DNA from: Hysterium pulicare CBS 123377
Taxonomy: Eukaryota > Ascomycota > Dothideomycetes > Hysteriales > Hysteriaceae
Length of the DNA stretch: 64,000 bases
Assembly (NCBI GenBank): GCA_000467715.1
Contig: AJFK01000185.1
Span: 86,726 to 150,725 of the forward strand
Reading direction: 5' to 3'
The notes under the pieces were generated by a model. The model searched no databases. It was not told the DNA's origin and saw nothing but the letters and a program-made list of their open reading frames with translations. Of this stretch, positions 9,301-9,449 are shown piece after piece. The translations under genes were made by a program, and so were the position numbers. The stretch's first letter is position 1, and each line of letters begins with the position of its first letter.

Positions 9301-9428
9301 GGCTCATTGGTCTAGTGGTATGATTGTGAGTTTTCTACGTCGGCCTCGTTAATTTCTGATGCTGACTATTTAGCTCGCTTTGGGACGCAAAATGCGAGAG
9401 GCCCCGCGTTCGAATCGCGGATGAGCCC
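9301..9428 (+). tRNA. tRNA-Pro (UGG) with two insertions
   Basis: Removing two insertions gives a full cloverleaf. The acceptor stem pairs GGCTCAT (9301-9307) with ATGAGCC (9421-9427), with discriminator C at 9428. The D arm is GGTCTAGTGGTATGAT. The anticodon stem pairs CTCGC (9374-9378) with GCGAG (9394-9398), with anticodon TGG at 9381-9383. The T stem pairs CCGCG with CGCGG around TTCGAAT. A-box and B-box sequences are intact and a T7 run follows. Insertion 1 (48 nt, 9326-9373) lies between positions 26 and 27. Insertion 2 (8 nt, ACGCAAAA, 9385-9392) lies at 37/38, the canonical tRNA intron site, where the yeast tRNA-Pro(UGG) gene also has an intron. The first insertion is at a non-canonical site, so the gene may use two different splicing routes or may be dead. 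Confidence 0.88.
9326..9373 (+). other. GT-AG spliceosome-like insertion inside the tRNA gene
   Basis: The 48-nt insertion begins GTGAGT, ends TTTAG and has GCTGAC about 7 nt before the end, so it matches this genome's mRNA introns in donor, branch site and acceptor. It sits between T26 and C27 of tRNA-Pro. Its first five bases, GTGAG, can also pair with CTCGC at 9374-9378 (one G.T wobble), so the unspliced RNA would have a competing stem. That leaves removal by the tRNA endonuclease open as an alternative. Confidence 0.7.
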
Positions 9429-9442
9429 GAATCCATTACTCA

Positions 9443-9449
9443 TTTTTTT
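9443..9449 (+). terminator. Pol III oligo-T terminator
   Basis: Seven T residues lie 14 bases after the tRNA discriminator base, as expected for RNA polymerase III termination. Confidence 0.7.

Follow-up and report, generated by a model that had tools for sequence, protein, structure and literature searches.

Putative mRNA-type introns in tRNA genes of the fungus Hysterium pulicare, among them the three proline tRNA genes identified

Judged from its DNA, the ascomycete Hysterium pulicare CBS 123377 very probably places introns of the mRNA type inside its tRNA genes. An example is the tRNA-Pro(UGG) gene at positions 9301-9428 (forward strand) of the 64,000-nucleotide stretch of contig AJFK01000185.1 analysed here (hereafter the window), which consists of three exons and two introns of different kinds (Table 1). 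One of these introns sits at the canonical site between positions 37 and 38 of the tRNA. The other is a 48-nt insert that appears to be a U2-type, mRNA-like spliceosomal intron within a gene transcribed by RNA polymerase III (Pol III); the fungus seems to have no fewer than eight introns of this kind, spread over seven or more tRNA genes. It is also probable, with somewhat more reserve, that this fungus possesses a second pathway of tRNA splicing, in which the spliceosome would be obligatory for the proline tRNAs and would serve dispersed tRNA genes, most of them needing two machines for their maturation.

Table 1. Parts of the tRNA-Pro(UGG) gene, two mRNA introns of the window, and the interrupted tRNA genes of the genome. 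Numbers such as 26/27 follow our own cloverleaf numbering.
Feature	Location	Strand	Basis
5' exon: acceptor 5' strand, D arm, to position 26	9301..9325	+	sequence, cloverleaf score
A box TGGTCTAGTGG of Pro(UGG)	9308..9318	+	sequence
Putative mRNA-type GT-AG intron, 48 nt, between T26 and C27	9326..9373	+	splice signals, cloverleaf score
5' splice site GTGAGT of the Pro(UGG) insert	9326..9331	+	sequence
Branch-point-like CTGAC, A 8 nt from intron end	9362..9366	+	sequence
3' splice site TAG (intron end TTTAG)	9371..9373	+	sequence
Middle exon: anticodon stem 5' strand and loop, anticodon TGG (CTCGCTTTGGG)	9374..9384	+	
Canonical tRNA intron ACGCAAAA, 8 nt, at 37/38 of Pro(UGG)	9385..9392	+	
3' exon: anticodon stem 3' strand, T arm, acceptor 3' strand, base 73	9393..9428	+	
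B box GTTCGAATC of Pro(UGG)	9408..9416	+	sequence
T7, Pol III terminator-like, 3' of Pro(UGG)	9443..9449	+	
Ornithine decarboxylase mRNA intron, 57 nt, GTCAGC...GCTCAC...ACAG	58691..58747	-	homology-supported
Ornithine decarboxylase second mRNA intron, 59 nt, GTAAGA...ACTGAC...ACAG	57678..57736	-	homology-supported
tRNA-Pro(UGG), insert at 26/27	window 9301-9428		
tRNA-Ala(CGC), insert at 25/26	L027		
tRNA-Ala(AGC) copy 2, insert at 58/59, T loop	L028		
tRNA-Gly(UCC), insert in variable loop	L017		
tRNA-Leu(AAG), insert at 28/29	L115		
tRNA-Pro(AGG), insert after G19, D loop	L116		
tRNA-Pro(CGG), two inserts, one in D loop and one in T loop	L117 (C127)	-	

A first-pass annotation of the window had described a tRNA-Pro(UGG) gene in which positions 26 and 27 are separated by a 48-nt GT-AG insert bearing GTGAGT, GCTGAC and TTTAG signals, together with an intact A box, an intact B box and a T7 tract, and each of these elements proved to be present as described. 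Its further claim, that the halves on either side make a perfect tRNA, stood in part: removal of the GT-AG segment does fall within the top-scoring tie, but the 8-nt intron at 37/38 had been overlooked and is still inside the joined halves. With removals of 40-60 nt ranked by a strict cloverleaf score, the best tRNA was a tie of 2 out of 1281 removals, one of them exactly the GT...AG segment 9326-9373. The score is 31.5 after this removal against 25.0 for the unspliced gene, which attains even that value only with a 57-nt intron at 37/38.

The window gene is far from alone. Seven tRNA genes carry GT-AG inserts among the 27 clear ones found in the genome (37.2 Mb in 596 contigs; every comparison lies within this one genome), a proportion that is not a genome-wide rate because the tRNA list is incomplete. 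The 27 genes were located with tRNA-arm patterns and the Rfam tRNA model, not with splice signals. The inserts number eight in total, all of them 48-54 nt long, and lie at 18/19, 19/20, 25/26, 26/27, 28/29, 46/48, 57/58 and 58/59. Apart from Ala(AGC) copy 2, every interrupted gene has a canonical 37/38 intron too (six of seven), and Pro(CGG) thus holds three introns in total. Enumerating removals with ARAGORN yielded between 50 and 285 distinct products per gene, and because this was too permissive the stricter cloverleaf score was written. By that score, removal of the GT-AG insert lay within the top tie for all five genes scored, which, besides the window gene, were Ala(CGC) (a tie of 9 out of 1596 removals), Ala(AGC) copy 2 (3 out of 1155), Gly (15 out of 1638) and Leu (2 out of 1722). 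ARAGORN called Pro(cgg) only when both of its GT-AG introns were taken out, and Pro(agg) only when its single one was.

The inserts also carry the signals by which mRNA introns are recognised. All eight fit the pattern GT[AGC]NG...[CT]AG, against a fraction of 0.000245 of 400,000 random genomic segments of 48-56 nt; in seven of them CTRAY lies 7-20 nt before the 3' end, against 0.039 of the random segments, the Ala(CGC) insert being the one with no CTRAY branch point. Both signals occur together in 1.5e-5 of random segments, and chance is not a reasonable explanation for them. The 5' sites read GTGAGT in three inserts, GTACGT in two, GTAAGC in two and GTCAGT in one. The first-pass claim that the signals of the window insert are like those of mRNA introns in this genome is borne out by two homology-supported introns of the window's ornithine decarboxylase gene, which look alike, and whose GTCAGC and GTAAGA starts are resembled by the GTCAGT and GTAAGC inserts. 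The best named matches of the ornithine decarboxylase itself come from Lindgomyces ingoldianus and Lepidopterella palustris (90% identity across 83% of the query), and those of a diphthine-ammonia ligase, also in the window, from Lophium mytilinum and Zopfia rhizophila (53% identity); all four genera belong to the Dothideomycetes. Over 311,554 bases, intron-like segments are in modest excess (126 observed, 96.8 expected). The excess is most marked for GTAAGT, GTATGT and GTACGT (11 against 2.2 for the last of these) and weaker for GTGAGT (10 against 6.2); GTCAGT is not enriched (3 against 7.8), and GTAAGC fell outside the pattern used for the count. The over-represented lengths include 48 and 51-55 nt. 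This larger and looser count superseded a de novo count in the window alone, where there was no overall excess (7 observed, 7.85 expected) and where 6 segments of 44-60 nt were observed against 2.5 expected.

In their extended GT-AG ends (8/8), their branch points (7/8) and their mRNA-intron-like length, the inserts therefore resemble U2-type introns, and none of the eight lies at 37/38, the position of canonical tRNA introns. No Rfam family scored above threshold in the window, and 48-54 nt is too short for the ribozyme core of a group I or a group II intron. An exact 24-nt pattern had no match in viral contigs.

Of the competing explanations, the one that survives best, though it is still improbable, holds that the tRNA endonuclease excises the inserts, as non-canonical tRNA introns, at bulge-helix-bulge-like structures, their GT-AG ends being a coincidence. 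Ectopic tRNA introns do exist in algae and archaea (PMC4090602), and the first-pass annotation had itself drawn attention to an endonuclease route through pairing of GTGAG with CTCGC. That pairing is real: the first seven bases of the Pro(UGG) intron pair with the 3' splice-site region in 7 of 7 pairs once two intron bases are counted in, the MFE fold contains this helix, and it could mask the 5' splice site or give another processing route. The insert can pair with the 3' exon. The proposed route is nevertheless weakened, for the corresponding pairing in the other seven inserts amounts to only 3-5 of 7 pairs and the helix is not common to them; a general hairpin joining 5' site and 3' site was rejected as Pro(UGG) alone has such pairing. 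Suitably placed helices of 4-5 bp, with G-U pairs allowed, are available to Ala(CGC) and Ala(AGC) copy 2, whereas the remaining six of the eight inserts have no central helix of at least 4 bp. This is a weak test, in which 2 of 8 GT-AG inserts and 4 of 14 canonical controls had the helix and the two kinds of intron were not separated; because the counts are alike in both, structure allows for the endonuclease as well. The signals speak differently. Splice signals of the mRNA type occur in all eight inserts, with a branch point in seven, while GT-AG ends occur in none of the 18 canonical introns reported by ARAGORN, which, unlike the inserts, are fixed at 37/38 and measure 8-35 nt. In the tRNA genes of nucleomorphs and Cyanidioschyzon merolae, D arms, T arms and stems also contain insertions, for which the tRNA endonuclease and BHB motifs are held responsible; those of the Guillardia theta nucleomorph span 3-24 nt, against 48-54 nt here, and the passages of that source which bear on these introns, unlike what is seen in the present inserts, mention no GT-AG signals (PMC4090602).

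Ranked just behind, and likewise improbable, is the explanation that the interrupted genes are dead copies, the intact ones being absent from the 596-contig assembly or missed by the searches. In its favour, an intact Ala(AGC) copy exists beside the interrupted one, and many tRNA species, including initiator Met, were not found, so that the assembly or the search must be incomplete. Against it, both our own score and ARAGORN recognise full cloverleaves in the joined genes, and one would not expect dead copies to possess splice sites or branch points. Without its intron, Ala(AGC) copy 2 is identical to the intact copy 1, even though the 600 nt upstream of the two copies have no meaningful similarity. 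Furthermore, the three proline isoacceptor genes found (UGG, AGG and CGG) are all interrupted, and an intact proline gene, sought both as joined DNA and by anticodon-arm patterns, was not found. A search with the A-box pattern, at 3 mismatches, gave 31 places, 30 of which were examined as loci, and the sole proline gene among them was that of the window. In the best 100 of 248 places matching the proline anticodon-arm pattern, the two with 0-1 mismatches were Pro(AGG) and Pro(CGG); 19 others had 2 mismatches, and none of the 7 of these that were read was a tRNA. The arm without its canonical intron matched at 24 places, all with 2-3 mismatches, compared with 26 in the control; one of the 24 fell in a stretch that was read (L103) and was no tRNA. 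Proline tRNA is indispensable to a cell and no intact gene was found; therefore the interrupted proline genes must be spliced, unless intact copies are absent from the assembly or too divergent to match. The possibility, raised by the first-pass annotation, of this tRNA needing the spliceosome has accordingly gained strength, from seven more inserts of the kind in six other tRNA genes, from the interrupted and intact pair of Ala(AGC) genes, and from a set of proline genes in which no intact member was found.

That the whole 128 nt of the window gene is a misread tRNA of another kind, Glu(TTC) or Lys(TTT), is extremely improbable: ARAGORN does call the unspliced gene Glu(ttc), adding a 36-nt intron, or in another setting Lys(ttt), but the cloverleaf scores given above reject the Glu(TTC) identity, the higher of them belongs to the molecule that has lost the GT-AG segment and then reads as Pro(UGG), and six further genes have inserts of this type.

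If the inserts are spliceosomal introns, excision would be only one step in the maturation of these tRNAs. Pol III would transcribe each interrupted gene in its entirety, intron included, as suggested by T runs that nowhere exceed 4 inside the seven precursors and by a run of T5 or longer that lies within 40 nt downstream (4-39 nt) of every one of the seven genes. The nuclear spliceosome would then excise the GT-AG intron in lariat form, and removal of the separate 37/38 intron, in the six genes that have it, would fall to the tRNA endonuclease and ligase, the order of the two steps being drawn from yeast cell biology; for the proline tRNAs the spliceosomal step would be obligatory. By sequence the A box is whole in all seven genes, and the T-loop introns break the B box of Ala(AGC) copy 2 and of Pro(CGG). 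In Ala(AGC) copy 2, GTTCGAGTA remains despite the intron. The second GT-AG intron of Pro(CGG) contains GTTCGAGCC, which fits the B-box consensus. It is a matter of speculation that either might serve TFIIIC, GTTCGAGCC possibly as a replacement promoter element.

With regard to origin, unrelated mRNA introns may have been reverse-spliced into tRNA transcripts and the products then copied back into the genes. The eight introns are mutually unrelated, with 1 of 28 pairs weakly similar (at 2/100 shuffles), and a common intron family was rejected on this count. Repeats flanking the insert joints are 0-2 nt long and there are no target-site duplications; the related copies and target-site duplications that mark introner-like or transposon-borne introns are thus both lacking among the eight. 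Since the introns are unrelated and the joint repeats so short, reverse splicing fits better than transposon-borne introns. In the D loops of Pro(AGG) and Pro(CGG) the introns occupy sites a single base from each other and their sequences are different; they were therefore likely gained independently.

A review of 2026 counts tRNA splicing among the processes that do without the spliceosome (PMC13149111), the relevant passages of an account of intron classes are without spliceosomal introns in tRNA genes (PMC11782384), and among the open-access papers listed on the subject, judged by titles and abstract openings, none reports spliceosomal introns in tRNA genes. Related cases are known from other RNAs. 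The U6 snRNA of Schizosaccharomyces pombe has an mRNA-type intron thought to have come from reverse splicing (Tani and Ohshima, cited in PMC10484740). Fungal U6 is like the tRNA inserts in having an mRNA-type intron within a Pol III transcript; unlike the tRNA hosts, however, it is itself part of the spliceosome and its intron lies near catalytic bases, whereas the tRNA inserts occupy several dispersed genes, most of whose transcripts also contain an intron of the endonuclease type. Ascomycete rRNA genes, including those of the lichen fungus Cladonia grayi, hold short spliceosomal introns, and yeast removes a 57-bp lichen rRNA intron from a Pol I transcript (PMC8527467). There, too, short spliceosomal introns lie within a structured non-coding RNA, but it is the product of Pol I and not a tRNA made by Pol III. 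If the spliceosome removes the inserts described here, the split between tRNA splicing and the spliceosome fails in this fungus, and the capacity for mRNA splicing would directly set the supply of tRNA. The interrupted genes would, in addition, document how introns are gained in nature where no reading frame acts as a constraint, and would show how tRNA finders can overlook genes.

ARAGORN missed three of the seven interrupted genes (Ala(AGC) copy 2, Pro(AGG) and Pro(CGG)) and gave two the wrong isotype (Pro(UGG) and Leu(AAG)). For Gly(UCC) it named the right isotype with the wrong intron, as it did for Ala(CGC) in one of two settings. The Rfam part of our own search favours uninterrupted tRNA genes. 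In one search 63 of 1229 tRNA candidates were scored; in another, 100 of 222 B-box places (267 in the control) were listed, and 66 of the 100 were read. One set of twenty regions held no tRNA and another set of twenty held one; five candidate regions for initiator Met and one A-box match held none. The initiator-Met anticodon arm was matched within 3 mismatches at four places, none of them a tRNA, and the gene could be missing from the assembly, diverged, or interrupted in the anticodon arm. Isotypes that were not found, initiator Met for example, may be hidden by introns such as those described here.

Two of the 27 genes are read with some ambiguity: the first gene of L016 is Ile(gat) according to ARAGORN and Gln(CUG) by our own reading, and Ser(UGA) of L014 was found by ARAGORN in one setting and missed in another; both were kept. 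A second Gly(GCC) gene (L050, C475:13424, +) was left out, as it is cut by the end of its contig, and a contig end inside this gene hints that tRNA repeats may break the assembly. Also left out were odd tRNA-like genes in L034 (C95:49437, -), L019 (C95:48875, -), L079 (C63:43164, -), L020 and L094 (one each, C129:22804 and 23133, -) and L021 (three, C493). These have recognisable D and T arms with anticodon regions that are odd, hairpin-filled or variable; several lie in close pairs or in a triplet, and they are not ordinary tRNAs. Finally, the Glu(CUC) genes L078 and L139 have the same exons and canonical introns of 23 and 12 nt, respectively, which are identical over the first 6 and the last 4 bases.
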